Source: Bacillus sp. J37 (lineage in GTDB: Bacteria > Bacillota > Bacilli > Bacillales > Bacillaceae). From it: a stretch of 36,970 nt of DNA. Where the stretch lies: contig NZ_JAEK01000049.1 in assembly GCF_000518865.1 (NCBI RefSeq), positions 1 through 36,970 of the forward strand. Direction: 5' to 3'. Positions 3,464 through 33,240 of this stretch are shown here, piece after piece. The notes beneath the pieces were generated by a model, which worked only from the letters and a program-made list of their open reading frames with translations, was not told the DNA's origin and did not search any database. Position 1 is the first letter of the stretch, and the number at the start of each line of letters is the position of its first letter. A program made the position numbers and the translations under genes.

Positions 3464-4369
3464 ATGAGTAAAACAAAAAAGGAAGTATTGGAAATTGCAG
3501 AAAAACATGGTCTCCAATTGATAGAGGACTTTTTTGTTTTTAATGAATCTGGATTAGACTTTCAGGTGGTATTTGCTAAGGATCAGGAAGGAAAAGAATG
3601 GGTGCTGCGTATTCCGAGGCGGTTTGATGTATTCCCTAGAACAAAGGCAGAAAAAACAGCACTGGACTTAATAAACAAGTATGCTAGTTTTGAAGCTCCT
3701 GATTGGGGAATTTACACAGAAGAGCTGATAGCGTATAAAAAGTTAAATGGAGTTCCAGCAGGAACCATTGATCCTGAAGCTAAAAGATATGTTTTTGAAA
3801 TTGATGAAAATAATATACCGAAATGTTTTTATCAGACGCTTGGAAAAGTATTGGCTACACTTCATAGCATTCCAAGGGAGAAAGCATCTGAAGCAGGTGT
3901 TATAGTTCAAACACCAGAGGAAGTAAAACAAATCATGAAGAATCGTATGGATGCGGTTAAGGAAAAATTTGGTGTGGGAGAGCCGTTATGGAATAGATGG
4001 CAGACGTGGTTGAATGATGAAGAAATATGGCCAAAAGAAACCGGACTGATTCATGGAGATTTGCACCCAGGACATATCCTCGTTGAAAGTTCAGGAAATG
4101 TAACGGGGTTAATTGATTGGACAGAAGCAAAGGTAGCTGATATTTCCACTGATTTCGTTGGCCATTACAGAGTATTTGGTGAAGAAGGTCTTGATACACT
4201 TATCAAGGCTTACAAAGAAGCTGGAGGGTATCATTGGCCTAAGATGAGGGAACATATTATTGAATTAAATGCTGCTTACCCTGTTGGAATTGCCGAATTT
4301 GCCTTAATATCTGGGATGGATGAATATATTCAGATGGCAAATAAAGAATTAGGTTTAGCTGGAATGTAA
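3464..4369 (+). CDS. mph: Macrolide 2'-phosphotransferase (Mph family)
   Basis: 301 residues, the usual Mph length. These cytoplasmic kinases inactivate macrolides by phosphorylating the desosamine 2'-hydroxyl, mostly using GTP. The catalytic loop HGDLHPGH is at residues 197-204 and the metal-binding IDWTEAK at 217-223. The N-terminal lobe has the family's WVLRIPRR (about 46-53), where the strand lysine of eukaryotic kinases is replaced by the Mph pattern. A weak GGATGTGATG precedes the ATG. No leader ORF is visible in the 46-bp gap after the membrane protein gene. Family membership is firm; which macrolides it accepts cannot be read from sequence. Chromosomal mph genes of this kind are common in the Bacillus cereus group and relatives. 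Confidence 0.88.
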
Positions 4370-4486
4370 TTTGAAATTACATTAAGTAGCGGGTAGTGGA
4401 CGCAGGGACATGGGGACAGGACTCGGATTAGTTATTGCCAAAAGTTTAATGGTAAAAATGAATATGAAGATGAGGTGTCATTAATT

Positions 4487-4909
4487 ATGAAACCAAGAAT
4501 CACAGTAATCACATTAGGTGTAGATGATTTGGAAAAAGCATTAGAATTCTACCGTGATGGATTGGGACTACCCACAGAAGGTATTGTAGGTAAAGAATTT
4601 GAGCATGGAGCAGTAGCCTTTTTTGAACTACAATCAGGTTTGAAACTTGCTATTTGGAAACGAGAAGATATTGCATATGAGGCAAAAGTTACACAGGCTC
4701 CAGCAAGTCCTACTGAATTTACAATTGGTCACAATGTAAATAGTAAAGAAGAAGTAGATAAGGTATTAGAACAAGCCGAAAAAGCGGGTGCAACAATAAC
4801 GGACCCTGCACACAACACTTTTTGGGGTGGATATTCCGGTCACTTTCAGGACCCGGATGGGCATTTGTGGGAAGTAGTCTGGAACCCAGCTTGGGAGATA
4901 GAGGAATAG
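4487..4909 (+). CDS. VOC-superfamily (glyoxalase/bleomycin-resistance fold) protein
   Basis: About 140 residues with two beta-alpha-beta-beta-beta halves typical of a single VOC unit. It opens with ITVITLGVDDLEKALEFYRDGLG and ends with WGGYSGHFQDPDGHLWEVVWNP, the classic YF-DPDGH-WE motif that carries a metal-ligand Glu. A GTG at 4475 is in frame, but ATG 4487 is 9-10 nt from GATGAGG and matches the normal family start. The substrate is unknown: family members include thiol transferases, dioxygenases and drug-binding proteins. Its place between resistance genes suggests detoxification, but this is only context. Confidence 0.85.
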   Translation: MKPRITVITLGVDDLEKALEFYRDGLGLPTEGIVGKEFEHGAVAFFELQSGLKLAIWKREDIAYEAKVTQAPASPTEFTIGHNVNSKEEVDKVLEQAEKAGATITDPAHNTFWGGYSGHFQDPDGHLWEVVWNPAWEIEE

Positions 4910-4950
4910 ACATGTGTTAAGGAAAGAGTATTATAGGGGATGTTTAAATT

Positions 4951-5682
4951 ATGAAACAAAACAAATATGATGATGCTGTGTTTTTTTCTGAATATGAAAA
5001 AATGCCAAGATCAGTTAAAGGGCTTGAAGGTGCAGGAGAATGGCCGGTTTTAAAATCCTTATTTCCAGAGTTGAAAAATAAGAGTGTACTTGACTTGGGG
5101 TGCGGATTCGGTTGGCATTGTCGATACGCACGTGAACACCAAGCAAGTTCGGTAATTGGAGTAGATATATCCGAAAAAATGCTTGAAACAGCCCGTGAAA
5201 AAACAGATGATCCTTTAATTACGTATATTAAAATGCCAATTGAAGACATCAATTTTTCGGACGCACAATTTGACGTAGTGATCAGTTCTTTAGCTTTTCA
5301 CTATATTAAATCGTTTGATACTATTTGCGAAAAAGTTTATCAATATTTAAAACCTGGAGGTTCTTTTATTTTTTCCGTGGAACATCCGATTTTTACTTCT
5401 CGGGACGAACAAGATTGGTATTATGATGATCAAGGAAATCGCCTTCATTGGCCAGTGGATAATTACCAATCAGAAGAAGTACGTAATACAACTTTTCTAA
5501 CCGAGAATGTGATCAAATATCACCGTACAATTTCTACTTATATTAATGATTTAATTCATATAGGTTTTAAAATAAAAGCGGTTAAGGAACCTATGGCTAC
5601 GGAAGAAATGGTAAGGAATGATCCAGGGATGAAAGATGAAAACAGAAGACCCATGTTTTTAATCATTTCAGTAGAAAAGTAA
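4951..5682 (+). CDS. Class I SAM-dependent methyltransferase
   Basis: 243 residues. Motif I is VLDLGCGFGWH (46-56), followed by the acidic residue of motif II in VIGVDISEKML, then FDVVISSLAFHYI (motif IV) and LKPGGSFIFSVEHP (motif VI). The EHPIFTSRDEQDWYYD segment is typical of a Bacillus family of UbiE/MenG-like small-molecule methyltransferases with unknown substrates. It follows the VOC gene by 41 bp with a GGGGATG site upstream. A 12-bp imperfect hairpin (5717-5750) ends the unit. Methylation of a drug or metabolite is possible but not shown. Confidence 0.85.
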   Translation: MKQNKYDDAVFFSEYEKMPRSVKGLEGAGEWPVLKSLFPELKNKSVLDLGCGFGWHCRYAREHQASSVIGVDISEKMLETAREKTDDPLITYIKMPIEDINFSDAQFDVVISSLAFHYIKSFDTICEKVYQYLKPGGSFIFSVEHPIFTSRDEQDWYYDDQGNRLHWPVDNYQSEEVRNTTFLTENVIKYHRTISTYINDLIHIGFKIKAVKEPMATEEMVRNDPGMKDENRRPMFLIISVEK

Positions 5683-5716
5683 TAGTAATAGTTTGCTAAA
5701 TAAAAAGTACACAAAT

Positions 5717-5750
5717 AGAAATCTGAGAACAGTAATTTTCTGAGATTTCT
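5717..5750 (+). terminator. Hairpin after the methyltransferase gene
   Basis: AGAAATCTGAGAA (5717-5729) can pair with TTCTGAGATTTCT (5738-5750) with a single G-G mismatch. There is no good T-run, so it is a weak terminator or an mRNA-stability hairpin ahead of the adenylyltransferase gene. Confidence 0.4.
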
Positions 5751-5799
5751 TCGTATACGGCACATAAACTACTTTTCAACAAATTGGAGGATTAATACA

Positions 5800-6657
5800 A
5801 TGAGAAGTGAACAAGAAATGAAGAATTTGCTCATTAGTTTTGCTAAGAACGATAATCGAATTCGCTTGGTAACTTTGGAAGGTTCACGTGCAAACAAAAA
5901 CATTCCCCGTGATTCATTGCAGGATTATGATATTTCTTATTTTGTAACAGATATGGATTCCTTCAAAAAGAATGATGAATGGCTGAATGTTTTTGGGAAA
6001 CGTTTGATAATGCAAAAACCGGAAGACATGGAGCTTTTTCCGCCGGAGTTAGGGCATTGGTTTTCCTACCTTATGCTATTTGAAGATGGCAATAGAATTG
6101 ACTTAACACTTATTCCGATAAACGAAGTAGATGATTACTTTTCTAATAGTGATGGGCTAGTAGAAGTCCTACTTGATAAGGGTGGTCTTGTCAAAAATAA
6201 AGTGGTCGCAAATGATCGGAAGTATTGGATTAAAAAGCCCACAGCAAGAGAATTTGATGATTGCTGCAATGAATTTTGGTGGGTTTCTACATATGTAGTA
6301 AAGGGATTGGCTAGAAAAGAAATTCTATTTACAATTGACCATTTGAACGAGATAGTACGGCCTAATCTGTTAAGAATGATGTCTTGGCAAATAGGATTAG
6401 AGCGAGGGTTTACCTTTAGTGTGGGGAAAAACTATAAATTTATTGAACAGTATTTACCGAAAGATGATTGGGAAACATTACTCACAACTTATTCTGAGAG
6501 TAGCTACTCAAACATGTGGAAGTCTTTATTTACTTGTTATGAGTTATTTAGAAAATACTCTAAATCTGTGGCAGAAAGTCTTGGATATAAGTATCCAGAT
6601 TATGACGAGGCCATCACGAAGTATACGCAAAACATTTATCAGTCATTGAATGAGTAA
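5800..6657 (+). CDS. aadK: Aminoglycoside 6-adenylyltransferase, AadK/ANT(6) family
   Basis: 285 residues, full length for AadK/ANT(6)-I. The enzyme transfers AMP from ATP to the 6-position of streptomycin. The nucleotidyltransferase signature is LEGSRANKN (26-34) followed by LQDYDISYFV (40-49), giving the two metal-binding aspartates; the third comes from the DGNRIDLTLIP strand. The C-terminal half is the helical substrate domain (EFWWVSTYVVKGLARKE). TTGGAGG lies 10 nt before the ATG. It converges on the cat gene, sharing the 6658-6777 gap. Enzyme class is firm; the activity range is inferred from the family. Confidence 0.92.
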   Translation: MRSEQEMKNLLISFAKNDNRIRLVTLEGSRANKNIPRDSLQDYDISYFVTDMDSFKKNDEWLNVFGKRLIMQKPEDMELFPPELGHWFSYLMLFEDGNRIDLTLIPINEVDDYFSNSDGLVEVLLDKGGLVKNKVVANDRKYWIKKPTAREFDDCCNEFWWVSTYVVKGLARKEILFTIDHLNEIVRPNLLRMMSWQIGLERGFTFSVGKNYKFIEQYLPKDDWETLLTTYSESSYSNMWKSLFTCYELFRKYSKSVAESLGYKYPDYDEAITKYTQNIYQSLNE

Positions 6658-6717
6658 TAAAGGTCAAATATAGGTGAGCTAATCAGAACTAGGTAAAGAT
6701 AGGGTTTGAATATAATT

Positions 6718-6746
6718 AAGAAAAGGAGTCACCAAAGCAACTCCTT
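6718..6746 (-). terminator. Terminator of the cat gene
   Basis: On the minus strand AAGGAGT and ACTCCTT form a 7-bp stem around a 10-nt loop, followed by TTCTTAATT. It lies about 30 bp past the cat stop codon and can also stop readthrough from the convergent aadK gene. Confidence 0.6.
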
Positions 6747-6777
6747 AACTAAATTTATTAAGCTACATCATCAATAC

Positions 6778-7428
6778 TTATGAGAGCCAATCAAGGCAGT
6801 TATTAGAAAGTTGCTGTAGTTCCTCTATAAAAATACTAGCATGAAATCCATCACAAACCGCATGATGTACCTGTAAAGAAATAGGCAATAATATTTTATC
6901 TTCCTGATTACAGTATTTTCCGCCAGTAATTATTGGTAATAAGTAGTTATGATTATTATTTACGTTTAGGTTGAAGCCAGTAAAACTAACCCATGGAATA
7001 CTAGATATAGGAAAGGAATTCTCTGGTACATTTTCTTTTATGAAAAATCCTTTAACCTCTGAATATTGTTTCATATCGTCTTGAAAGTTTTTATAGAAGA
7101 CAGGAAATTCATCAGAGAATTCGGTCCATATGCTTGAGAATGATTTGTTATCATTATGGAAGATTGTATAGCTAGGCAACAAACTTTCCCAATAACCCAG
7201 AGTACCATCATCTTTTAAGCAAGTTCTAAATTCTTTATGAGAATTTACTATTCTAGTGACCATGTAAATAAAGGATGGATATAGCTTTATCCCTTTGTTC
7301 CTGAGCTGTTCCAATAACGTTGTAATATCTATATTTGCTGTAATACTAAATGTGCACTTCTGATTTAAGTAATGCTCGAAATACGGCAATCTATCCCATT
7401 TTTCTTTTTCAATTAGATTAAATTTCAT
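6778..7428 (-). CDS. cat: Chloramphenicol O-acetyltransferase, type A
   Basis: 216 residues, the standard type A CAT length. The trimeric enzyme acetylates the 3-hydroxyl of chloramphenicol with acetyl-CoA. The catalytic motif HHAVCDGFH is at 188-196. Other family marks are the N-terminal WDRLPYFEHYLNQKCTFSIT and the IPWVSFTGFNLN strand. The ATG at 7426-7428 is 8 nt from a perfect AGGAGG that is buried in a 15-bp hairpin. A 9-codon leader ORF overlaps the hairpin, as in inducible Gram-positive cat genes, so expression is very likely drug-inducible at translation. It is the only minus-strand gene in the resistance cluster and is divergent from the APH-family gene. Confidence 0.95.
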   Translation of the reverse strand: MKFNLIEKEKWDRLPYFEHYLNQKCTFSITANIDITTLLEQLRNKGIKLYPSFIYMVTRIVNSHKEFRTCLKDDGTLGYWESLLPSYTIFHNDNKSFSSIWTEFSDEFPVFYKNFQDDMKQYSEVKGFFIKENVPENSFPISSIPWVSFTGFNLNVNNNHNYLLPIITGGKYCNQEDKILLPISLQVHHAVCDGFHASIFIEELQQLSNNCLDWLS

Positions 7429-7433
7429 TTGAT

Positions 7434-7472
7434 TAGCCTCCTAAAAATGTGTTTTTGATTTTTAGGAGGCTA
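7434..7472 (-). promoter_or_regulatory. cat translational attenuator hairpin
   Basis: Perfect 15-bp inverted repeat: TAGCCTCCTAAAAAT (7434-7448) and ATTTTTAGGAGGCTA (7458-7472) with a 9-nt loop. In the minus-strand mRNA it sequesters the AGGAGG of cat. A ribosome stalled on the leader ORF would open it, as shown for cat-86 and pC194 cat. Confidence 0.92.
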
Positions 7473-7491
7473 ACTTGTCTGCTTTCACCAA
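7462..7491 (-). CDS. cat leader peptide MVKADKLAS
   Basis: Nine codons starting at TTG (7489-7491), after GAGGTGAGGG, and ending at TAA (7462-7464), so its last codons and stop lie inside the attenuator stem. The peptide MVKADKLAS closely resembles the cat-86 leader MVKTDKISS, whose nascent chain inhibits peptidyl transferase and places the stalled ribosome on codon 6. A GTG start at 7488 is also possible. This is the sensor for chloramphenicol induction; the mechanism is inferred from cat-86. Confidence 0.88.
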   Translation of the reverse strand: MVKADKLAS

Positions 7492-7524
7492 TACCCTCAC
7501 CTCATAAATAATGCTTTAAATAAG

Positions 7525-7553
7525 ATACTAAATCATTTGAAATTCATATTCAA
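7525..7553 (-). promoter_or_regulatory. cat promoter
   Basis: On the minus strand TTGAAT (7548-7553), a 17-bp spacer and TAGTAT (7525-7530) lie upstream of the leader peptide, leaving about 25-30 nt of 5' leader before its start codon. Confidence 0.7.
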
Positions 7554-7591
7554 CCATTCTAATACGCATATGTATGGCTTTTTACAATAAT

Positions 7592-7620
7592 TAAAGGGCA
7601 ACCTCGAATTGTGTTATACT
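7592..7620 (+). promoter_or_regulatory. Possible extended -10 promoter of the APH-family gene
   Basis: TGT followed by TATACT (7615-7620) is an extended -10 element; the -35 region is poor. It lies about 37 bp before the phosphotransferase start and is divergent from the cat promoter. Confidence 0.45.
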
Positions 7621-7656
7621 TTTTCCGTGTTGTAAGTTTTTACTGGAGGGGCTAGG

Positions 7657-8604
7657 ATGAATCAAGTAAAAAGTATATTAAAAGACTTTTATGACATAGA
7701 GATTAATGTTGTGTCGCCTCAGCAGGGTGGTTGGGCATCCCTCGCATATAAAGTGTCAAATAAAAATCAAAGCTATTTTTTGAAGGTATATGAAAAAAGC
7801 AGAGCTTCCACACCGAAGTTGACTGCTCTGATTGATCAATATGTTCCAATCTTGGTATGGCTTATAAAGAATAGCAATTTAAAAGGGAAAATCTCCGTTC
7901 CTATGATGACAAGTGAAAGAAAATATAAATGTGAAGATGAGTATGGGATTTATTTGCTTTATGAATATATTGAGGGGGAAACGATTGGGGATCGAGATTT
8001 AACAGAGAATCAGGTTTATCAGCTTTCAAAGATCATAACAGAGCTTCATTCATATAGTGATAACATTCCAATTGGGACTGATGCTTTTATAGAAGATTTT
8101 GAGGTTCCATTTTTACCGATGTTGAGACAAACATTGCAAAAAGGGAGAAATGATTTTCCGTCTGAGGTATGGGAATTGATCCATTCCTACATTCTACAAT
8201 TAAATGATCTGATTTATACACTTGAGGAGCATTCACAGAACTTGAAAAACTCAAAATTAAGAATGGCCTTATGTCATACAGATTTACACAATTGGAATTT
8301 AATGCAGTCGGGACAAGAGCTAATATTAATTGATTGGGAAGGATTGAAACTAGCCCCGCCTGAAGCTGACTTGATGTTCTTAGATGATAAACCCTACTTT
8401 AATGAATTTTTAAGAATCTATCGGAAAACTCATCAAAACTTTTCAATTAATCCTGAAGCAATGACCTTTTATAAGGGAAAGAGACGATTGGAAGATATAT
8501 GGGAATTTATGGAACAACTTTTATATGATAAACAAGGGGAACAAGAAAGAGTTATAACGATGAACTATTTACAGGAAGAGTTGAATGAAATAAATAAATG
8601 GTAA
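7657..8604 (+). CDS. APH-family phosphotransferase, spectinomycin-kinase-like
   Basis: 315 residues. The C-terminal kinase core has the catalytic loop CHTDLHNWNLM (206-216) and the metal site LIDWEGLKLAPPEADLMF (224-241). The N-terminal lobe has GGWASLAYKV as a nucleotide loop and YFLKVYE with the strand lysine. The DWEGLKLAP-EAD arrangement recalls APH(9)-type spectinomycin phosphotransferases, but related kinases act on other small molecules, so the substrate is open. GGAGGGG precedes the ATG by 6 nt. It heads a short plus-strand run with the methyltransferase at 8645 and the nucleotidyltransferase at 9369, which may be co-transcribed. Confidence 0.82.
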   Translation: MNQVKSILKDFYDIEINVVSPQQGGWASLAYKVSNKNQSYFLKVYEKSRASTPKLTALIDQYVPILVWLIKNSNLKGKISVPMMTSERKYKCEDEYGIYLLYEYIEGETIGDRDLTENQVYQLSKIITELHSYSDNIPIGTDAFIEDFEVPFLPMLRQTLQKGRNDFPSEVWELIHSYILQLNDLIYTLEEHSQNLKNSKLRMALCHTDLHNWNLMQSGQELILIDWEGLKLAPPEADLMFLDDKPYFNEFLRIYRKTHQNFSINPEAMTFYKGKRRLEDIWEFMEQLLYDKQGEQERVITMNYLQEELNEINKW

Positions 8605-8644
8605 GGTAAATCTATCCCATTGTTGAATAGGAGGGGGTGAACAT

Positions 8645-9331
8645 ATGAGTATTACAGGATCACAGTTTGATAAAGTGGCTGAAGAGTATGACTTTGTAAC
8701 TAATCTTCTGAATGACAATACCTTTTTTATTGCTAATATGCCAATAGAAAAAGGGAGAGCATTAGATATTGGATGTGGGACGGGAATATTAGTCTATGAA
8801 TTATCCAATTACTTTAGCGAGGTAGTTGGTATTGATATATCGGAAGGGATGCTTGAGTTTGCCAACAAGAAGCGTCAGTGTTCGAATATTTCATACTTGA
8901 AGATGGATGCAGAAAATCTTAGTTTGGGGTATAAGTTTGCTTATATCGTAAGCAGGACGACTTTCCATCATTTGAGGGATATATCAATTGTAATTAATCA
9001 AATGAAAGAATTGCTGTACGAAGGTGGGAAAATTGTTATTCTTGATAATGTGTCTAAGGTTGAAACCCCACCAACGTACGTTTACATATTAGGAGCAATC
9101 CAAGAATTTCTTCCTAACTGTTTCAAATTCGGTGTGAAAAATGCTGTGAGAGTATTCAAGTATAACACTTCAAAGTCGTGGCTCGAACATTTAGCATCTG
9201 ACAAGTACCTTTCAGAACAGAAATACTATGAGATATATGGAAAATTATTGCCTAATTGTACCTTTCGTAGAATGAATTGGGCAATGGGGATTATTTGGGA
9301 AAAACCGATTGTTTCGATGATAACTGAGTGA
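8645..9331 (+). CDS. Class I SAM-dependent methyltransferase
   Basis: 228 residues. SAM-binding motif ALDIGCGTG (39-47), then VVGIDISEGMLEFA (motif II), YLKMDAENL (motif III) and a TTFHHLRD segment typical of UbiE/MenG-type enzymes. The C-terminal third (FRRMNWAMGIIWEKP) is like Bacillus methyltransferases of unknown substrate. AGGAGGGGG lies 7 nt before the ATG, and the gene follows the APH-family gene by 40 bp, so co-expression is likely. It is not closely similar to the other methyltransferase at 4951 outside the SAM fold. Target unknown. Confidence 0.85.
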   Translation: MSITGSQFDKVAEEYDFVTNLLNDNTFFIANMPIEKGRALDIGCGTGILVYELSNYFSEVVGIDISEGMLEFANKKRQCSNISYLKMDAENLSLGYKFAYIVSRTTFHHLRDISIVINQMKELLYEGGKIVILDNVSKVETPPTYVYILGAIQEFLPNCFKFGVKNAVRVFKYNTSKSWLEHLASDKYLSEQKYYEIYGKLLPNCTFRRMNWAMGIIWEKPIVSMITE

Positions 9332-9368
9332 ATGTTATTAACCATAGGATAAAAATAGGAGTTGAAAA

Positions 9369-10205
9369 TTGTTGAGCGTAGAAAACATTTTACAAGAAAT
9401 TAACAATGAATTAAAAGATGTCCCGGGCATTGTTGGAGTGGTATTAGGAGGATCAAGATCAAGAGGTACGAATCACCCAACTTCCGATATAGATATTGGA
9501 ATATATTATGATACATCGGCAGGGTTTGATGTCAGAGGGGTTAGTGAAGCTGCTACTAGATTGGATGATGACCATAGAGAAAATCTAGTTACATCTTTAG
9601 GTGAGTGGGGTGCCTGGATAAATGGTGGTGGTTGGATTGTCGTTCAAGGGTACCATGTAGATTTGATTTTTCGGGATATAAAAAGGGTATCTCAAGTAAT
9701 TGATGATTGTTTACAGGGCAAGGTTTCTACTCATTATCATACAGGACATCCACATGCCTATCTAAATGTTATGTATATGGGGGAAATCTCCATTTGTAAA
9801 ATATTGTATGAATGTACCAATCAAATTTCAGATTTAAAAGCTAAGACTAGCCCTTATCCAAAATCATTAAAGGATGCCATAATCGGCTATTTCATGTTTG
9901 AAGCATCTTTTTCTTTGATGTTTGCGAAGGACAATGTGGATAAGGATGATATTACATATGTTACGGGGCACTGCTTCCGAACTATTTCATGTTTAAATCA
10001 AGTATTATTTGCTTTGAATGATGAATACTGTATCAATGAGAAAAAAGCTGTCCGAATGATTGAGAGCTTTAATCAGAAACCCAATAATTATAAGAAAAAC
10101 ATCGACCAGATTGTTACATTAATTTCTTCCGATTCAGATCATACGAGTGAAGCGGTTAAAATGTTGCATGACCTTGTGTCGGAAACGGAAAAGATACTAA
10201 AATAA
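9369..10205 (+). CDS. Nucleotidyltransferase-domain protein
   Basis: 278 residues from a TTG start 7 nt after AGGAG; a second TTG at 9372 is equally possible. The nucleotidyltransferase signature GGSRSRGT (27-34) and SDIDIGIYYD (39-48) supplies two metal-binding aspartates, with a third probably in YHVDLIF. The C-terminal half is helical. This is the ANT/minimal-nucleotidyltransferase fold, like the family of putative kanamycin-type or DUF4037-like enzymes, but it is clearly different from the AadK-type gene at 5800. Adenylylation of a drug is plausible from context; the substrate is unknown. It ends the run that begins with the APH-family gene. Confidence 0.8.
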   Translation: MLSVENILQEINNELKDVPGIVGVVLGGSRSRGTNHPTSDIDIGIYYDTSAGFDVRGVSEAATRLDDDHRENLVTSLGEWGAWINGGGWIVVQGYHVDLIFRDIKRVSQVIDDCLQGKVSTHYHTGHPHAYLNVMYMGEISICKILYECTNQISDLKAKTSPYPKSLKDAIIGYFMFEASFSLMFAKDNVDKDDITYVTGHCFRTISCLNQVLFALNDEYCINEKKAVRMIESFNQKPNNYKKNIDQIVTLISSDSDHTSEAVKMLHDLVSETEKILK

Positions 10206-10258
10206 ATATCAAGTTGAAGGTAAATAACCGTCTCTAATTGTAAAAGCACTATTTATCT

Positions 10259-10287
10259 TTGACTTTTTGTAAAAGAGAACCTATAAT
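10259..10287 (+). promoter_or_regulatory. Strong promoter of the ErmD-type leader
   Basis: TTGACT (10259-10264), 17-bp spacer, perfect TATAAT (10282-10287). It drives the leader peptide ORF at 10328 and, beyond two terminators, the rRNA methyltransferase gene. Confidence 0.85.
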
Positions 10288-10327
10288 AATCACTATACTT
10301 TTAAACGTTAAGGAGGATTATTAAAAA

Positions 10328-10372
10328 ATGACACATTTTATGAGACTACGATTCCCAACTTTGAACCAGTAA
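10328..10372 (+). CDS. Macrolide-sensing leader peptide MTHFMRLRFPTLNQ
   Basis: 14 codons from ATG (10328-10330), 11 nt after a perfect AAGGAGG, to TAA (10370-10372). From memory the ermD/ermK leader peptide is MTHSMRLRFPTLNQ, so this differs by one residue (Ser4 to Phe). In ErmDL the Arg-Leu-Arg motif stalls the ribosome when a macrolide or ketolide occupies the exit tunnel. Here the leader precedes two terminators and an RlmA-type gene rather than an erm gene. It is too short for ordinary gene finders. Confidence 0.92.
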   Translation: MTHFMRLRFPTLNQ

Positions 10373-10542
10373 TTGAATACGTTCAAAGGCTCTGTTTGTG
10401 TATGCAGAGTAAACGGGATTAGTCTGTCCTTTTTTAATAATCTTCATTTCATAGTTATTCACCACATCCAGCAATTTATTTCCCCCAATCAACTTATGGG
10501 TGGATCCTTATTGCCTGTTTATGTGTGGAAAATATGTAATGT

Positions 10543-10578
10543 AAGGAAAGGCGACTTATTTGCCTTTCTTTATTTTTG
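10543..10578 (+). terminator. First terminator of the attenuator
   Basis: GAAAGGC (10546-10552) pairs with GCCTTTC (10562-10568), with partial extension on both sides, followed by TTTATTTTTG. It would stop transcription about 250 nt after the start unless antiterminated. Confidence 0.75.
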
Positions 10579-10687
10579 TCTAATTTAACCTTTCGTTGTT
10601 TAGATCAAGGGCAGGTTTTATTTGCTGACGGCTTTTAATAGCTCCCCCTAATAGAATAAGGATGGGTCTCTTTCCCTTTACTCTCAA

Positions 10688-10716
10688 ATCACAGGCAGAT
10701 GCTTGTGATTTTTTTA
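10688..10716 (+). terminator. Second terminator of the attenuator
   Basis: ATCACAGGC (10688-10696) pairs with GCTTGTGAT (10701-10709) with one G-U pair, followed by seven T. It ends just 20 bp before the start codon, next to the AAAGGAAG ribosome binding site, so it gates the methyltransferase gene directly. Confidence 0.8.
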
Positions 10717-10735
10717 TTTGAAAGGAAGAGAAACC

Positions 10736-11635
10736 ATGATTAATAAAGAAAAAAGTGCTGAATTAGTTAATAAATATGTTCATGTATTTAGTTGTCCGCT
10801 TTGTAAAAGTCCAATGAAGGTCACTCATTTAAAGAGCCTAGTCTGCCTGAATAATCATACGTTTGATTTTGCGAAACAAGGCTATGTAAACATGATGACT
10901 CATTCTACAAATAGCCATTATGCCAAGGAATTATTTAAAGCACGACAAAAAGTCATTATGGAAAATAACCTTTTTGCCCTCCTACACAAGGAAATTTCAG
11001 AAATTATCATTGAAAATATGGATGCTTTAAAGGGTGAAATTATAATTTTTGATGCAGGGTGTGGAGAAGGATCACATTTACAAAGGATCTTAGATGAATG
11101 TAAGAATGAAACAATTGCAGGAATTGGTTTAGATATTTCAAAAGAGGGCATACGAATGGCGGCACGCAATTACAAAAAGTCCATTTGGCTTGTCGGTGAT
11201 TTAGCAAATTCACCATTACAGGATCAATCATGCCATATCATTTTGAATATCCTATCACCTGCAAATTATAAGGAATTCCAAAGGATCTTAGTACCTAATG
11301 GTCTCATTATTAAAGTTGTTCCTCGTTCAAATTATTTAAAAGAACTACGAGAAGCACGATTCGATGAGAAAGATAAAACGTCTTATAAAAATGATGAAAC
11401 GGTATCTCTTTTTAAACAGCATTTTCATCTTATGGACACTTTCGAAATTAGTTATACCAAGGGACTAAATGTAAAAGATTTAACAAATTTAACTCAAATG
11501 TCGCCACTTTCCTGGAATATGAGCAAGGACGATATGGAACAAATTATAAATCGTGGAATTTCCAGGATTACCATTGACTTAGATATTTTGGTAGGAATAA
11601 ATAAGTCAAATAATACTAATGAACGGCCAAATTAG
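10736..11635 (+). CDS. rlmA: RlmA/TlrB-type 23S rRNA (guanine-N1)-methyltransferase
   Basis: 299 residues from ATG 10736, after AAAGGAAGAG; the in-frame TTG at 10718 would include the ribosome binding site and is rejected. An N-terminal zinc site (C20-x2-C23, C37-x3-H41) leads into HTFDFAKQGYVNMM, the hallmark of RlmA proteins. The SAM motif is FDAGCGEG (105-112). Family members methylate N1 of G745 (RlmA-I) or G748 (RlmA-II/TlrB) of 23S rRNA in the macrolide/tylosin tunnel region; in Firmicutes G748 is usual. Control by a macrolide-arrest leader fits a role in macrolide response. The exact base modified is inference. Confidence 0.88.
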   Translation: MINKEKSAELVNKYVHVFSCPLCKSPMKVTHLKSLVCLNNHTFDFAKQGYVNMMTHSTNSHYAKELFKARQKVIMENNLFALLHKEISEIIIENMDALKGEIIIFDAGCGEGSHLQRILDECKNETIAGIGLDISKEGIRMAARNYKKSIWLVGDLANSPLQDQSCHIILNILSPANYKEFQRILVPNGLIIKVVPRSNYLKELREARFDEKDKTSYKNDETVSLFKQHFHLMDTFEISYTKGLNVKDLTNLTQMSPLSWNMSKDDMEQIINRGISRITIDLDILVGINKSNNTNERPN

Positions 11636-11741
11636 ACTCGAAAAAGTGTAATGGGTGTCCCATAGCTGTACCATTTTCTATAACAATTTGATTATCAATA
11701 AATGGAATATAAATAATCCTACGAAATAGGGGGAGTAAACG

Positions 11742-11765
11742 ATGCAATTTTTATTATTCTTTTGA
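11742..11765 (+). CDS. Short leader peptide MQFLLFF
   Basis: Seven codons from ATG (11742-11744), about 6 nt after GGGGGAG, to TGA (11763-11765). It lies 80 bp upstream of the ABC-F gene, and its stop codon overlaps the first base pairs of a hairpin. Very short hydrophobic leaders of this sort precede inducible antibiotic-resistance ABC-F genes (for example the MYLIFM leader of msrD). Which drug would stall it is unknown. Confidence 0.7.
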   Translation: MQFLLFF

Positions 11766-11817
11766 TACGGGCTTTAACTTGAAATAAAGGCTCGTATCGG
11801 TCCTAGCTATCGGTACG
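11764..11817 (+). promoter_or_regulatory. Mutually exclusive hairpins before the ABC-F gene
   Basis: Hairpin 1 pairs GATACGGGCTTT (from 11764) with AAAGGCTCGTATC (to 11798), about 12 bp with two wobbles. Hairpin 2 pairs CGTATCGGT (11793-11801) with ATCGGTACG (11809-11817). They share CGTATC, so only one can form. A ribosome stalled at the end of MQFLLFF would block hairpin 1 and favour hairpin 2. Neither hairpin has a T-run or covers the GGGAGGT of the ABC-F gene, so the output step is unclear. Confidence 0.55.
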
Positions 11818-11846
11818 AAATCACCAATTTTCGGGAGGTAGCAAAA

Positions 11847-13310
11847 ATGGAAGAAATATGTTTTGAATTAGAAAATGTTGAACTAACTTATTTAGATAAA
11901 ACTGTATTAGTGATTGAGCGTTTAGCTGTTCATCAGTTTGATCGCATCGGTGTTGTCGGGGAAAATGGAGCAGGAAAAAGTACGTTATTAAAGTTACTAG
12001 CGGGTATAGTTCAACCGTCAAACGGAAAAGTGAAAAGTCATGTAGACTTTGCTTATTTTGATCAATTAACTGTACCAGGGCCAGCAGAGGTGGATTATGA
12101 CCTAAAAGGAAAGCTGTCTATCCCTGAAACAGACATCAATAATTTCAGCGGTGGGGAACAAACAAGGCTGAAACTAGCTCAATTTTTTTCAAACTATCAT
12201 GAAGGTTTATTAATTGACGAGCCAACCACGCATCTTGATGCAGAGGGTGTAGAACTTTTTATCGGTGAATTGGCTTACTATTATGGTGCACTCGTACTCG
12301 TGAGTCATGACCGGTATGTATTAGATAAACTTGTGACGAAGATTTGGGAAGTCCAAGATGGAATTGTAACGGAATATACAGGGAACTATTCGGATTACGT
12401 CGTACAAAAAGAACTTCAGAAAAGGCAACAGCAGGAACAACATGACAAGTATTTAAAAGAAAAATCACGTCTTATCAAAGCCGCAGAAGAAAAGATGAAG
12501 AAGGCTGAAAAAATTACACAGGCCAATGGACATATGTCCAAAAAAGAAACAAAAGCAAAGGCGAATAAAATGTTTATGACGAAATCCAAGGATACAAGTC
12601 AAAAGGCAGTCCAAAGAGCAGCAAAAGCAATAGAGCAAAGAGTAGAACAACTTGAAGCGGTGGAAGCACCGAAAGAAGAGCAAATCATTCGATTTCACCA
12701 GTCTAGTGCTTTGCAATTACACAATAAATTTCCGATAATGGCAGATCAGTTAAGGCTAAAGGCGGGGGAGAAGACACTTCTTGATAAATCGGGTTTTCAA
12801 TTCCCGTTAGGCAAGACCATTGCTATTACAGGTAAAAACGGTTCAGGTAAAACAACGTTGCTTCGGCATATTTTACAGCGTGGTGAAGGGATTACGATTT
12901 CGCCAAAAGCGGTTATCGGCATTTATGAACAAATGGACTATCAGTTTACAAAGGATGAATCTGTACTGGAATTTATGAAAGATAGAAGTGATTTCGATGA
13001 GAGCAAAATTCGTTCTGTTCTACACTCTATGAATATTACAGGAAATGATTTAAAAAAGAATGTCCGGAATTTAAGCGGTGGAGAGTCTATTCGTCTAATA
13101 TTGTGTCAGTTATTCTTAGGAAGATACAATATACTCATTTTGGATGAGCCCACGAACTTTTTGGATGTTTTTTGTATTGAAGCGTTGGAACGGTTTTTAA
13201 AAGGATATGAAGGAACTGTACTATTTGTATCGCATGATCGAACCTTTGTTGATAGAGTGGCTGATTGTGTTTATGTCATAGAGGATCAAAAGTTAGTATT
13301 AAAAAGCTAA
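11847..13310 (+). CDS. ABC-F ribosomal protection protein (Msr/Vga-like)
   Basis: 487 residues, two ATP-binding domains and no membrane segments. First domain: Walker A GENGAGKST (38-46), signature SGGEQ (101-105), Walker B LLIDEPTTHLD (121-131). Second domain: Walker A GKNGSGKTT (about 334-342), signature LSGGES (about 410) and LILDEPTNFLD (about 430). Between them is a long charged linker (about 185-275), the part that enters the ribosome in this family. ABC-F resistance proteins displace macrolides, lincosamides, streptogramins or pleuromutilins. The first domain is compact, as in Msr/Vga types. GGGAGGT lies 7 nt before the ATG. Drug spectrum cannot be assigned; a housekeeping ABC-F is less likely given the leader. 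Confidence 0.88.
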   Translation: MEEICFELENVELTYLDKTVLVIERLAVHQFDRIGVVGENGAGKSTLLKLLAGIVQPSNGKVKSHVDFAYFDQLTVPGPAEVDYDLKGKLSIPETDINNFSGGEQTRLKLAQFFSNYHEGLLIDEPTTHLDAEGVELFIGELAYYYGALVLVSHDRYVLDKLVTKIWEVQDGIVTEYTGNYSDYVVQKELQKRQQQEQHDKYLKEKSRLIKAAEEKMKKAEKITQANGHMSKKETKAKANKMFMTKSKDTSQKAVQRAAKAIEQRVEQLEAVEAPKEEQIIRFHQSSALQLHNKFPIMADQLRLKAGEKTLLDKSGFQFPLGKTIAITGKNGSGKTTLLRHILQRGEGITISPKAVIGIYEQMDYQFTKDESVLEFMKDRSDFDESKIRSVLHSMNITGNDLKKNVRNLSGGESIRLILCQLFLGRYNILILDEPTNFLDVFCIEALERFLKGYEGTVLFVSHDRTFVDRVADCVYVIEDQKLVLKS

Positions 13311-13358
13311 TGTAAAAAATGGGTAGGGATGTAAAGGGGTCATTATGATCTTAGAGAT

Positions 13359-13600
13359 GTAGCTGTTACTTTCCTCTTCCCTCTGCTAAAAAGTTACTAC
13401 CTACTGTTAAATAGTTGGTTTCCAAACGGCAAAGGAAGCGGGAAGAGCAGCGGACAGTCAATTATGTAATTAATCGTTACTCAATCGGTTTTTTCAATCA
13501 AAAATCAATATTATATCGGGGCGGGTCCAGTAGGACTTCGTCCCGTTTCTTTATGTCCAATATCCCTTCAATCCCTTGTCCATAGCGTGTTCAGGTGTTT
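13359..13600. repeat. Dispersed intergenic repeat, copy B
   Basis: Diverged copy of 1671-1885 with the same ordered blocks (TAAATAGTTGGT, AACGGCAAAGG, CGGGAAG, GAGCAGCGG, GCGGGTCCAGT). Near GGGTCCAG it can fold by pairing GGACTTCGTCC. It is non-coding and sits just after the ABC-F gene. Confidence 0.6.
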
Positions 13601-13711
13601 TCCATATCGTTTTCTATACAGTACGAAAGAACACGGAATAGAAGTAGGGAGAGATGTATTAAAAGGGTTTTTCATTTTCCCCTTTAAGGGTCAGTTTTCT
13701 AACGTATGGGT

Positions 13712-13742
13712 AGGCCACTTTAGTATAAAGTAGCCTATTTCT
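13712..13742 (+). terminator. Terminator-like hairpin
   Basis: AGGCCACTTTA (13712-13722) pairs with TAAAGTAGCCT (13726-13736) with one mismatch, followed by ATTTCTT. It lies about 400 bp after the ABC-F gene, with no closer terminator visible, so it may end that transcript. Confidence 0.45.
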
Positions 13743-13836
13743 TGCTTCTTAACAGTGATTATAGTCAATGAATTTCTTATAATGTTAGGTTCCACATTAT
13801 ATATGTTTTTACAGTCTATTAAACATGAATAAGGCC

Positions 13837-13865
13837 TTTTCATGCACCAATCTTTACGCTATAAT
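13837..13865 (+). promoter_or_regulatory. Promoter of the 18-codon ORF at 13905
   Basis: TTTTCA (13837-13842), 17-bp spacer, perfect TATAAT (13860-13865). Confidence 0.55.
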
Positions 13866-13904
13866 TTAATGTAACGAACAATTGTTTGGAAGGTTGGAAT
13901 CAAT

Positions 13905-13961
13905 ATGAATTGCTTTAGTACACAAAAATATAAATCATTTTTCATAAAACTCGTGTCCTGA
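13905..13961 (+). CDS. 18-residue leader-like peptide MNCFSTQKYKSFFIKLVS
   Basis: Starts at ATG 13905, 11 nt after GGAAGG, downstream of a TATAAT promoter, and ends at TGA 13959-13961. Its last codons form the left arm of a terminator (13949-13980), so translation of its end must disrupt that hairpin. This is the layout of an attenuator leader. The next gene is the XRE regulator at 14124. I do not recognise the peptide. The unit at 17078-17216 has the same design. Confidence 0.6.
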   Translation: MNCFSTQKYKSFFIKLVS

Positions 13962-13980
13962 AAAGGATGCGGGTTTTTTT
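13949..13980 (+). terminator. Terminator overlapping the 18-codon ORF
   Basis: ACTCGTGTCC (13949-13958) pairs with GGATGCGGGT (13965-13974) using several G-U pairs, followed by a run of T. The stop codon of the small ORF lies in the loop. Confidence 0.7.
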
Positions 13981-14123
13981 GTTTTTTGCCTACCGACAAG
14001 TAGACAGTTTTTATCTTAAACGTTTAAATCATCAATTCCGAAGTGAACTATTCGAAGCAATTTAGATTAGTAACCTAATTAAACAGTTGTAAACAATTAA
14101 AACATTAAAAAGGGGTGGCAAAT

Positions 14124-29531: not shown

Positions 29532-31421
29532 ATGTATATTTCCGAAGTTAAAATTTTAAACTATAGAAGTTTTGAGCAATTTAATGTTAGTTTGAATGAT
29601 GGCCTATCAATTATTATAGGGGAAAATAACGTAGGAAAATCAAACTTCTTAGAGGCTCTAAGTCTTATCTTTAATAGTAATTATTCTATTAGGAAAAGAA
29701 CGCTACTACAGGAAGACTTCTGGAACGGTTTAATCATCAGAGATGTTTGGCCAGAGGTTGTAATTGAAGCAACTTTAAAGGGGATTGATACAGAAAATGA
29801 ACTTGCAATTACCAGTAGATGGTTAACTAGAAAACCAGGAGAAGGTAGACTAACTTACAAATTTAGACCGAAGGCTAATATATCAGTGAAACCTCCAACT
29901 AGAGCTATATCTATTGAAAAGATTCAGCTTCCATTAAATGAATATGAGTGGGTAATATACGGTGGAGAACGTGAAACGCTAGATACCTTTGATTTTAATA
30001 TGCTATCGAAGTTTGGGATTGAGTATGTAGGAGCACTTAGAGATGCAACAACAGAACTTAAAAAGTCATCTGGACAGTTGCAACGGATTCTTAGAAATTT
30101 TGATATTAAAGAAGCAGAGCTTAAAAAAATTGCAGATAAGATTGATGAGCTTAATAGACAAATAACTAAAGGGAAGGAAATTCAAAAGGTCCAAAGTGAT
30201 ATTAATAGATACCTAGGACGAATAACCGGCATATCAAGTCAAACAGTAAAAATACAAATGGGAGAAAGTGATTATGATTCTCTATTGAAAGATTTGAGGG
30301 TGTTAATTGGAACAAATGAGGATAATGTCCACTCTGTTGAAATGAACGGATTAGGATATAACAACTTACTTTATATCAGTCTTTTGCTTACACAATACAC
30401 TGCTATAAAAGAAAAAAGAATACAAAACCACGATTATATGTATCCTATTCTAATTGTGGAGGAGCCTGAAGCACATTTACATAGTCACTTGCAAAAATTT
30501 TTGGCAAACTATTTATTTGAACAAAAGGTAGCTGGACAAGTCATAATGACTTCTCATTCTACCCACGTTAGCTCCCATTCAAGTTTAGATAGCTTAATAA
30601 TATTTTATAAGGTTGAAGGGGAGACGATTTCTAATCGTGTAGGGTCCATTTTTGACTTGAAGGTAAAAGAACACCGTCAATATAAACGATATTTAGAAAG
30701 ATGGTTGGATGCCACAAAATCAGATATTTTCTTTGGACGAAAGGTACTTTTGGTAGAAGGAATTGCCGAAAGACTTCTAATGCCCAAATTCTTTTCTATG
30801 TTATATAAAGAAAAAATAGTTATTAACGGTGAGGAAGTAGAACGTGGAAAGACTCTTGAGGGCGAGGGGATTTCAATTATTTCAGTTGACGGAGTTGCTT
30901 TTCGCCCATTTTTACAGTTGTTTGGACAGAATGGATTGAATATTAAATGTGCAGTTTTGACCGATAGTGATCCGGCGGCAATACCTGTTAAAGACAACGA
31001 AGGAAATGACATAATTTTAGGTAATAATAAGATTTTAAAAGAAGAGGCTTATCCGTCAAAAATGGGGGAAATTGAAAGCTGTCAAAGAACTCTTAACCTA
31101 TTAAATGATTTCCATTCTACTCCAAATGTCTATATTTCTAATAATATAAAAACATTTGAATATGACTTATTACTTGAAAAAAATACCTCTTTCTTTTCAG
31201 AACTTATTCAAGAGAATAAATTGGGAACGCAAGAAAATCGAGAAAGAATTCTTTTACTTAAAGGGAAGGATTTCGCTAGAGATTGCTACAATCTAATTTC
31301 TAAAGAAAAAGGGGAGTTTGCTCAATTAGTATTAGATAAATTAAACGAGGGTAAAAGGTTAAATATCCCTTCATATATCAAACAAGCGTTTGACTTTTTA
31401 TTAGAGGAAGAAGGTGAATAA
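29532..31421 (+). CDS. gajA: GajA-like OLD-family ATPase/nuclease (Gabija)
   Basis: 629 residues. The N-terminal ABC-type ATPase begins MYISEVKILNYRSF, with Walker A GENNVGKSN (30-38), Walker B region LIVEEPEAHLHSHLQ (about 308-322) and TSHSTHVSS (about 340). The C-terminal TOPRIM domain has LLVEGIAERLLMP (about 402-414) and AVLTDSDPA (about 474-482), the metal-binding Glu and Asp. In Gabija, GajA forms a tetramer that nicks or degrades DNA and is restrained by nucleotides until phage infection lowers them. It is longer than the B. cereus GajA (578 residues). It overlaps gajB by 8 bp. Pairing with a UvrD-like helicase separates it from solitary OLD proteins. Confidence 0.88.
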   Translation: MYISEVKILNYRSFEQFNVSLNDGLSIIIGENNVGKSNFLEALSLIFNSNYSIRKRTLLQEDFWNGLIIRDVWPEVVIEATLKGIDTENELAITSRWLTRKPGEGRLTYKFRPKANISVKPPTRAISIEKIQLPLNEYEWVIYGGERETLDTFDFNMLSKFGIEYVGALRDATTELKKSSGQLQRILRNFDIKEAELKKIADKIDELNRQITKGKEIQKVQSDINRYLGRITGISSQTVKIQMGESDYDSLLKDLRVLIGTNEDNVHSVEMNGLGYNNLLYISLLLTQYTAIKEKRIQNHDYMYPILIVEEPEAHLHSHLQKFLANYLFEQKVAGQVIMTSHSTHVSSHSSLDSLIIFYKVEGETISNRVGSIFDLKVKEHRQYKRYLERWLDATKSDIFFGRKVLLVEGIAERLLMPKFFSMLYKEKIVINGEEVERGKTLEGEGISIISVDGVAFRPFLQLFGQNGLNIKCAVLTDSDPAAIPVKDNEGNDIILGNNKILKEEAYPSKMGEIESCQRTLNLLNDFHSTPNVYISNNIKTFEYDLLLEKNTSFFSELIQENKLGTQENRERILLLKGKDFARDCYNLISKEKGEFAQLVLDKLNEGKRLNIPSYIKQAFDFLLEEEGE

Positions 31422-33240
31422 AGAATTGACTGATAATGATAATTTCCGTAAAAGTATTGCAATTGCACCGTTAACTCAATCTGTTGTAGTTCAAGCGGGA
31501 CCTGGAAGTGGAAAAACTACATTATTGATTCAAAGATTGAAACATATTATCGAAAAACGTCCTATGTCTTTCTCAGGTATTGCATGTATTACCTATACCA
31601 ATGCTGCAAAGGATGAAATCATTGGTCGTTTACAAAAAGAAGGAGTGCAGTTACCAGCAGGACTTTTTATAGGGACCATTCATTCTTTTTTATTAGATTT
31701 TGTGATAAAGCCGTATTCACATTTTGCGAGAAAGGACCGTACATCTTATAAACTGGCTCCACCTGGTTTTGCAAGGGGTTACAAAACCGAGATAAGAAAC
31801 ATATTGAATAGCCCTAATTATTTCATTGATGAATCCACCTTGGCGGCGTTTGAAAGTTTAGGAAGAGATGAAAATGGATTTCCTTGCTGCTTTAAAGAAA
31901 AGATTTCTCCAGAGGCGACTAGAAAGTGGAAGGACTTTATTAAGGAAAAAGGATACATTGATCAACAAGATGTTATATTTTTATCTTATCTAATACTTAA
32001 TAAGTATGAACATATAAGGAAGGCAATTAGTTCAAGGTTTCCCTTTATTTTAGTGGATGAGTTTCAGGATGTAACATCATATCAGGATAAAGTGTTCTCC
32101 ATGTTAGTCCGTTCAGTATTCTTTTTCGTCGGAGATAAAAACCAATCTATTTTTAGTTTTACCGGTGCAAAACCTGAATTTTTTCAATCTAGGATTAAAG
32201 ATAAAAAATTCTTGAATTACAGGTTAACTAATAATTTTCGTAGTACAAAGCATATTGTAAAGTTTACCAACCGTAAAACTAATGTTCAACAAGAGGAAGC
32301 TGGTGACAATGCAGCCAGTAACCAAAAAGTATTATTTATAAAAAATATTGAGGAACTTTCTGAGGTTATACCATTATTTCACTCTATACGTAAAAAAGTA
32401 AGATGTGATGAAAAGTATAATCCCTACATGATATTAGCAAGAAAGAATGAGTATTTATCCAATATATCTCACTTAATACACAAACAAAATGTTGAAATTA
32501 ATCCGTTTCTTAAAAAACTAAGCAAAGAACACTATCGTCGCTTTAAAATATTACAAAACATTTTATTGGCCATTTCCCATAAAAAAGAAAATCAATTTGA
32601 AGATTCAGTCGAAAAAATGGCAGAAGCACTTAGTTATCTTATTTTTAATGAACATCCAAGTTTTGTGTCTTTAGCAGAGATCGGATACAACAAATTCATG
32701 TGGAGGAAATTACAAATATTTACGTTGCATTTTTTGATTGGCCTAAATCTAAAGGAAACCTCAGTAGAATCACTGTTTATACAATTAAAAGAATTCCTAT
32801 CTGAACAATCGAAAAAATTATTTGGAAAATCAATCGGTAATAAACTTAGAATGCTTAGTTACGATTGGAAAAATCAAGTGAGGGCTTCTAAGAAAACTAC
32901 TGTTTCAGATTTATTAGAGGATACAGGTAACTATGACAATAGTTCAGATTTTCAAAGTCATGTGTTTAATATACATACAGCAAAGGGACAAGAGGCAGAG
33001 TGTGTTTTAGTTATAGCTGAATCAGAAACTCAATTGCTAGAGTGGCTGGGAGATAATAATGATTCTGAAGAGGCACGTGTAGGTTATGTAGCATTTTCAA
33101 GAGCGAGAAAACTATTGTGTGTCTGGGCACCTTCTATTAAAGAGGAAAACTATAAATACCTCGAACAAAATATAGAATTCGTAGATAAGTCGTACTACGA
33201 TAGCAATCTAGTAATAGATGAAGAGTTAATTATTTCTTAA
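31414..33240 (+). CDS. gajB: GajB-like UvrD/Rep-family helicase (Gabija)
   Basis: 608 residues from a GTG start inside gajA, with GAGGAAG upstream. Superfamily 1 helicase motifs: QAGPGSGKTTL (27-37, Walker A), ITYTNAAKDEI (about 60-70, motif Ia), FILVDEFQDVTSYQ (about 209-222, motif II), GDKNQSIFSFTGA (about 237-249, motif III), LTNNFRST (about 270, motif IV), HTAKGQEAECVLV (about 516-528, motif V) and VAFSRARKLLCV (motif VI). GajB senses DNA ends and couples with GajA in defence. It is longer than the reference GajB (494 residues) but has all motifs. The 8-bp overlap ensures coupled translation. Confidence 0.87.
   Translation: MNKELTDNDNFRKSIAIAPLTQSVVVQAGPGSGKTTLLIQRLKHIIEKRPMSFSGIACITYTNAAKDEIIGRLQKEGVQLPAGLFIGTIHSFLLDFVIKPYSHFARKDRTSYKLAPPGFARGYKTEIRNILNSPNYFIDESTLAAFESLGRDENGFPCCFKEKISPEATRKWKDFIKEKGYIDQQDVIFLSYLILNKYEHIRKAISSRFPFILVDEFQDVTSYQDKVFSMLVRSVFFFVGDKNQSIFSFTGAKPEFFQSRIKDKKFLNYRLTNNFRSTKHIVKFTNRKTNVQQEEAGDNAASNQKVLFIKNIEELSEVIPLFHSIRKKVRCDEKYNPYMILARKNEYLSNISHLIHKQNVEINPFLKKLSKEHYRRFKILQNILLAISHKKENQFEDSVEKMAEALSYLIFNEHPSFVSLAEIGYNKFMWRKLQIFTLHFLIGLNLKETSVESLFIQLKEFLSEQSKKLFGKSIGNKLRMLSYDWKNQVRASKKTTVSDLLEDTGNYDNSSDFQSHVFNIHTAKGQEAECVLVIAESETQLLEWLGDNNDSEEARVGYVAFSRARKLLCVWAPSIKEENYKYLEQNIEFVDKSYYDSNLVIDEELIIS

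Follow-up and report, generated by a model that had tools for sequence, protein, structure and literature searches.

Organization of the rlmA-msr locus

The window considered here is a stretch of 36,970 nucleotides from Bacillus sp. J37 (contig NZ_JAEK01000049.1). An intact gene at positions 10736-11635, on the + strand like every operon feature described in this section, encodes a protein of 299 amino acids assigned by profiles and a structure match to the RlmA/TlrB class of 23S rRNA guanine-N1 methyltransferases. Behind it lies the gene of an Msr-family ABC-F ribosome protection protein of 487 amino acids (11847-13310; 775 bits, cut-off 680).

The initial annotation had placed a strong promoter and an ErmD/ErmK-type leader ahead of rlmA, and both readings are borne out. 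The -35 (TTGACT) and -10 (TATAAT) hexamers, 17 nt apart (10259-10287), match the consensus at 11 of 12 positions and are conserved in relatives: upstream of 63 of 71 homologous leaders the best promoter match reaches at least 10/12, where base-shuffled stretches would be expected to give 2.1. Judging from the promoter position, the transcript probably starts near 10294. A Shine-Dalgarno sequence, AAGGAGG (10310-10316), is kept in alignment A1 and serves the 14-codon leader MTHFMRLRFPTLNQ (10328-10372), which is recognized by reading of the sequence, by a pattern scan and by alignment. Besides its own Shine-Dalgarno, this leader has the MRLR motif and nucleotide homology to the leaders of Erm loci. 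By analogy with ErmDL, stalling is predicted once Leu7 (10346-10348) occupies the P site and Arg8 (10349-10351) the A site.

A terminator scan of 10150-11900 detects four terminator-like sites, where shuffles average 0.9. The pair on the + strand consists of the terminator-like hairpin T1 (10541-10573) and the terminator T2, whose hairpin (10686-10711) is followed by a U-rich tail (10686-10719 in all); folding recovers both. When the full leader is folded to minimum energy, the rlmA Shine-Dalgarno (10720-10730) comes to be paired around T2. As a whole, the 446-nt leader folds better than any of 100 dinucleotide shuffles (z -6.58).

A second leader peptide, MQFLLFF (11742-11765), detected by an ORF and Shine-Dalgarno rule, lies with a hairpin (together 11742-11799) ahead of msr, so the window operon may hold two attenuators in series. 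By a simple rule of the same kind, a peptide of this type precedes Msr in only 2 of 15 rlmA-msr loci (the window and L039), in 7 of 8 mef-msr loci and in the one erm-msr locus scanned.

The RlmA-class methyltransferase

Assignment of the first gene to the RlmA/TlrB class, also proposed at the outset, is confirmed by several matches. The product has an N-terminal Zn ribbon (Pfam Zn_ribbon_RlmA, PF21302, 48.6 bits, cut-off 27) and a class I SAM methyltransferase domain (PF13649, 34 bits, cut-off 27), and it matches the E. coli RlmA structure, PDB 1p91, with an E value of 3e-26. Among NCBIfam models the best is that of 23S rRNA (guanine(745)-N(1))-methyltransferase; the product scores 153 bits, short of the equivalog cut-off of 303 set for RlmA-I (G745), and it also matches the NCBIfam models of G748 enzymes (Erm32, ChrB, MyrA) below their cut-offs. 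Going by the host group, the target base is probably G748 (RlmA-II/TlrB). A genome search finds the window copy as the one RlmA gene of this genome.

A tree of RlmA proteins was drawn from 112 of 120 sequences, eight duplicates or fragments (L001, L010, L077, L094, L102, L114, L121, L122) being left out, and leaders were sought up to 750 nt upstream. Twenty proteins with an RLRFP(T/A)LN leader fall inside one group of 33 (support 96/81), and 29 with a MIIQF(I/M)R(Y/F)R leader fall inside another group of 34 (96/79, not starred). The RlmA family therefore came under two different macrolide-type leaders. The remaining 63 have neither leader within the 750 nt; in one of them (L127) the module lies farther off, about 1.1 kb upstream of rlmA (L215). 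Five proteins inside the MRLR-leader group (L126, L130, L132, L133, L134) show no such leader in this interval.

Predicted alternative folds of the leader RNA

In the free transcript of the window, 10314-10444 folds on itself, covering the leader Shine-Dalgarno, the start codon and the MRLR codons, and T2 forms with a probability of 1.0. When the footprint of a ribosome at the stall site is blocked, 10383-10436 pairs instead with 10652-10708, a predicted antiterminator whose 3' strand overlaps the 5' arm of T2; the probability of T2 drops to 0.07, and to 0.00 if the Shine-Dalgarno is covered too. It must be noted that these are equilibrium predictions which ignore the order of transcription, with hairpins mapped in the other leaders through alignment A2.

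Both folds are supported by the alignment of 70 leaders. For the antiterminator, 89.0% of the cells are paired, a share that falls to 45-52% on sliding by 1-3 columns; both sides have changed at 9 pairs and in 31 cells, where shuffles give 4.6 and 11.9. The uninduced fold is paired in 96.9% of cells, with 30 double-side-changed cells against 16.9 in shuffles. Variation extends to the wobble base of the Leu arrest codon, with 20 double-change cells, though this base is unpaired in 29/70. The TLN codons, which lie past the stall site, pair with 10381-10388, and may be kept for this reason.

In the free fold T2 is formed (probability at least 0.7) in 61 of the 70 leaders. In 42 of these 61, including 14 of the 17 of the RlmA class, it falls to 0.3 or below once the Shine-Dalgarno and the stall site are covered together; a control cover of like size on the spacer does so in 3/61. 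The stall-site footprint alone is effective in 24/61 (6/17 of the RlmA class), while covering only the 5' stretch is effective in 17/61, which counts against the stall model. Three RlmA-class leaders keep T2 above 0.3 despite a covered Shine-Dalgarno (L010, 0.82; L045, 0.39; L112, 0.89), and in three Erm leaders (L005, L017, L048) and one Msr leader (L119) the antiterminator prevails even without any cover. The leader of the Mph locus (L073), the only one of its class in the alignment and the most divergent of all, forms neither T1 nor T2.

T1 behaves differently in these folds. It is formed in 67 of the 70 leaders and relieved by ribosome cover in three of those 67. Folding predicts it whether the leader is occupied or free and does not support a role as regulated terminator, which counts against the model of control set out below. 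T1 may be leaky, or it may be passed with help from the stalled ribosome that equilibrium folding does not display. The earlier proposal that two successive terminators make up an attenuator stands, then, as regards the presence of both and a predicted mutually exclusive fold for T2; relief of T1 is not seen. The long-range antiterminator is an addition to that reading, and the folds point to the second terminator (10686-10711) as the conditional one. A leader-internal hairpin followed by six U residues (10430-10435) was also considered as a terminator of its own and rejected, the U-tract being paired with the leader Shine-Dalgarno region in the same fold.

The same leader ahead of other resistance genes

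A degenerate MRLRFPTLN pattern was scanned over 84,980 species genomes, longer stretches being added for truncated ones, and the first gene behind each match was classed by tblastn against one reference protein per class. Of 72 places, 25 have Msr as the first gene, 17 have RlmA, 17 Erm, 10 Mef and one Mph; the other two are a contig end (L002) and a chance match in Bergeyella (L012). Since the leader-then-rlmA arrangement recurs in 17 of the 72, it is not a product of chance. As far as the available sequence reaches, rlmA is intact in all 17 of these loci, and Msr follows it in 14, L069 showing a 71-residue Msr match only; no Msr is found behind rlmA in L026/L118 and L066/L114 within the stretch examined.

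Pieces of rlmA (69 amino acids matched) lie between the leader and an intact Msr gene in L112 and L103, the remnant-bearing L035/L112 being tallied among the 25 Msr-first places. In L115 (L050), tallied as Mef, a piece of mef (164 amino acids matched) occupies the same position. These remnants suggest that loss of the first gene can produce leader-msr arrangements.

Homology is not confined to the peptide. By blastn, window positions 10257-10453, or most of that part, are 86-94% identical in Msr, Mef and Erm loci, the last including L017, L029 and L048, and 10529-10722 also matches L010, L014 and, partly, L065 and L053. Upstream regions of rlmA homologues, whose comparison for MRLR leaders had been suggested, give the same answer: 10257-10453, or most of it, is matched at 81-100% identity in 26 of 120. 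Alignment A2 (70 leaders, five gene classes, 16 Erm loci) extends this homology through T2; besides the contig-end and chance matches, it leaves out L018, which is short, and L016, which is identical to the window. The 5' part of the leader also occurs in 23 of 72,556 plasmid records, among them five from Priestia, where the gene behind it is annotated as an RNA methyltransferase, and one from Macrococcoides canis with mef(F).

A tree of the leader RNA requires 20 changes of gene class, where the minimum possible is 4 and the mean of shuffles is 37.3. With 8 of 66 inner branches starred, the resolution of this tree is too poor for a number of gene exchanges to be given.

A wider RNA family

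A covariance model, R1, was built from 50 leaders for the part from the Shine-Dalgarno to the hairpin. With E values up to 0.001 it has matches in 130 of the 397 genomes that sample the order and in 11 of the 398 that sample the phylum. Within the order sample, 113 of at least 150 matches were examined (30 loci, 80 fetched stretches, C29, C51 and L234). The next gene in the 121 R1 loci examined is Mph in 36, Msr in 26, a Mef-like MFS transporter in 23, Erm in 10, HflX in 10, RlmA in 9, and another gene or none in 7 (L213, L218, L219, L236, L277, L308, L317), the classes resting on blastp to one reference per class or on clustering, apart from the HflX and Mef-like representatives. One HflX representative was confirmed (TIGR03156, 438 bits, cut-off 217); the Mef-like representative scores under the Mef cut-offs. 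In L213 the next ORF is, by eye, a sugar-type ABC ATPase, and in L219 a short ABC permease-like piece, suggesting orphan modules or long spacers.

The assigned leader carries an R/K-X-R/K motif in 107 of the 121 loci. By the ORF rule used it is absent in 14, of which 5 belong to the 10 Erm loci, and no leader peptide is assigned in L235, L311 and L313. At the gathering score, Rfam gives no match in the window (a relaxed search yields two sub-gathering matches, E 0.28 and 1.4) and, in four other loci, none except a group II intron in L016.

The genome of the window itself holds three copies of the module, one before rlmA-msr (the window), one before Msr (C29, L076) and one before a Mef-like transporter (C51, L238). 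The initial annotation had spoken of a sensor module reused for another gene; the reuse turns out to be broader, extending to six gene families. On balance, we lean towards the view that a single attenuator RNA family has spread between genes by duplication and recombination, and that in roughly one in three of the order's sampled genomes it couples proteins of at least six unrelated families (Erm, RlmA, Msr ABC-F, Mef-like MFS, Mph and HflX) to one signal, the macrolide-stalled ribosome. One cell could then hold a regulon of several copies built in cis, and the decision would fall at the second terminator, not the first, by means of a helix whose arms are some 270 nt apart.

Leaders of macrolide resistance genes have so far been described mostly gene by gene. 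Here one RNA, alignable from the Shine-Dalgarno to the second terminator, precedes proteins that share only the class of drug they defeat; the sensor, rather than the resistance gene, is therefore the conserved and movable unit, and the covariance model can serve as a finder for inducible resistance genes. No report of one RNA family common to the six genes was found in the open-licence literature.

Relation to known attenuators

A close relative is ermK/ermD of the Bacillus licheniformis group, controlled by transcription attenuation with the leader MTH(S/A)MRLRFPTLNQ. The window shares with it the leader peptide, the arrest motif, homology of the leader RNA, and both hairpins with their order, and the Erm loci L041, L051 and L057 align with the window leader. 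Truncated ermK transcripts of two sizes, about 210 and 333 nt, have reportedly been seen, and these would fit T1 and T2. The window differs in its target, which is rlmA-msr and not erm, and in the distance from the leader pattern to the gene start (about 370 nt, against about 260 in the three Erm loci). ErmDL itself is described as stalling with erythromycin and telithromycin in PMC8298421.

Control of an rlmA gene by macrolide attenuation is not new in itself, because tlrB (yxjB) of B. subtilis, an RlmA-II enzyme acting on G748, is induced by tylosin, not by erythromycin, through the leader MIIQFIRYR, according to PMC6851288, whose authors predict 180 RXR leaders ahead of tlrB homologues. Like the window, that system, as outlined there, has an RlmA-class gene behind a short RXR leader, a terminator and a hairpin covering the Shine-Dalgarno; it differs by its NusG pause, its tylosin response and its leader peptide. 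Leaders of the type MIIQF(I/M)R(Y/F)R lie mostly some 120-160 nt before rlmA and are not that of the window, where MTHFMRLRFPTLNQ is at 408 nt; nor does model R1 match in G019, G026 and G033, which have a MIIQFIRYR-type leader before rlmA. What appears to be new is an rlmA gene under the shared ErmD-type switch: an ErmD-type leader before rlmA was not found reported in the open-licence literature, subscription papers being mostly outside that scope.

Judged by its described features, rli80-hflXr of Listeria is also similar. It has a 14-residue RLR leader, with a terminator, an antiterminator and an anti-antiterminator supported by mutants, and responds to lincomycin and erythromycin (PMC6310831). 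HflX is a class found behind R1 (10/121); the target gene is another than in the window, and the dual response to lincomycin and erythromycin belongs to rli80. A table in PMC4335068 covers the MRLR-type leaders of erm(D), erm(K), ermJ, mef and msr genes; those of mef(E)/mel and msr(A) (MTASMRLR, MTASMRLK) likewise combine MRLR-type arrest with transcription attenuation, and several R1 matches carry MTASMRLR before Mef-like, Mph or Erm genes. The same source sees no homology between the mef(E) and ermK RNAs, whereas in the Mef loci of the present order homology is found by blastn and in alignment A2.

A model for control of the rlmA-msr operon

We consider it quite probable that the operon is controlled by a macrolide-sensing transcription attenuator of the ErmD/ErmK kind. 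The model joins the parts of the locus, their homology, the conserved alternative pairings and the gene classes, all established at the level of sequence, to steps of stalling and read-through that we infer. Without drug, the leader would be translated without pause and its mRNA would fold on itself (10314-10444); 10652-10708 would stay free, T2 would form, transcription would end and the rlmA Shine-Dalgarno would be covered. When a macrolide or ketolide occupies the exit tunnel, the ribosome would stall at Arg-Leu-Arg and the leader fold could not close; the 3' half of that fold (10383-10436) would then pair with 10652-10708, blocking T2 and allowing rlmA and msr to be transcribed. RlmA would methylate helix 35 of 23S rRNA, probably at G748, against tylosin-like 16-membered macrolides, and Msr would protect against 14/15-membered ones. 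The switch would be one member of the homologous RNA family found ahead of at least six unrelated gene families.

There is a mismatch in this scheme, the sensor type being known for erythromycin and telithromycin and the enzyme family for tylosin resistance. It is possible, if rather unlikely, that the leader senses erythromycin-like and ketolide drugs only, msr being the useful gene and rlmA a passenger or a side benefit. The drugs known to stall ErmDL (PMC8298421) would agree with this, as would the presence of Msr behind rlmA in 14/17 loci, its rank as the most frequent first gene (25/72) and the rlmA remnants ahead of intact Msr in L112 and L103. However, rlmA is the leading gene of the operon and, as far as their sequence reaches, all 17 RlmA-first loci have it intact; two of these (L114, L118) have no Msr in the stretch examined. 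Why an erythromycin/ketolide-type sensor precedes an rRNA methylase of the tylosin-resistance kind has become a testable question.

A mainly translational switch, in which most transcripts would pass or stop at T1 and T2 whatever the drug and the stalled ribosome would free the rlmA Shine-Dalgarno, seems improbable. Pairing of that region around T2 in the full-leader fold and the unrelieved T1 are consistent with it, and both layers of control act in B. subtilis tlrB according to PMC6851288; against it, T2 and its U-rich tail are kept in position and sequence in the 17 RlmA-class leaders and in other classes too, and the 5' arm of T2 takes part in the antiterminator pairing. That the leader is a drug-unresponsive relic in this host, rlmA being expressed at a low constant level, is barely credible: T1 is always predicted to form, but across 70 leaders the codons of the peptide, its Shine-Dalgarno and the two hairpins are conserved, and so, through compensatory changes, is the alternative pairing.

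Genomic neighbourhood

To judge by sequence identity, the block that carries the operon moves. Window positions 6975-13981 are 99.99% identical in Heyndrickxia acidiproducens DSM 23148, whose genome measures 3.3 Mb against 5.3 Mb here, which looks like a recent transfer between species; 6231-13347 are 97% identical in Neobacillus mesonae MER TA 107. The short H. acidiproducens contig (L016) runs into a group II intron (RF02001, L016 1-142).

Further resistance genes adjoin the rlmA-msr operon (3464-10205). They encode a Mph(B)-like phosphotransferase (3464-4369, under cut-off), ANT(6) (5800-6657) and CatA (6778-7428), both above cut-off, an APH(9)-like kinase (7657-8604, under cut-off) and a nucleotidyltransferase (9369-10205). 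At the far side of the window lies a Gabija anti-phage system, GajA and GajB (29532-33240; PADLOC E values 6e-156 and 5e-79); behind it, 34600-36846 encodes a protein whose match to PD-T4-6 is of the kinase type.
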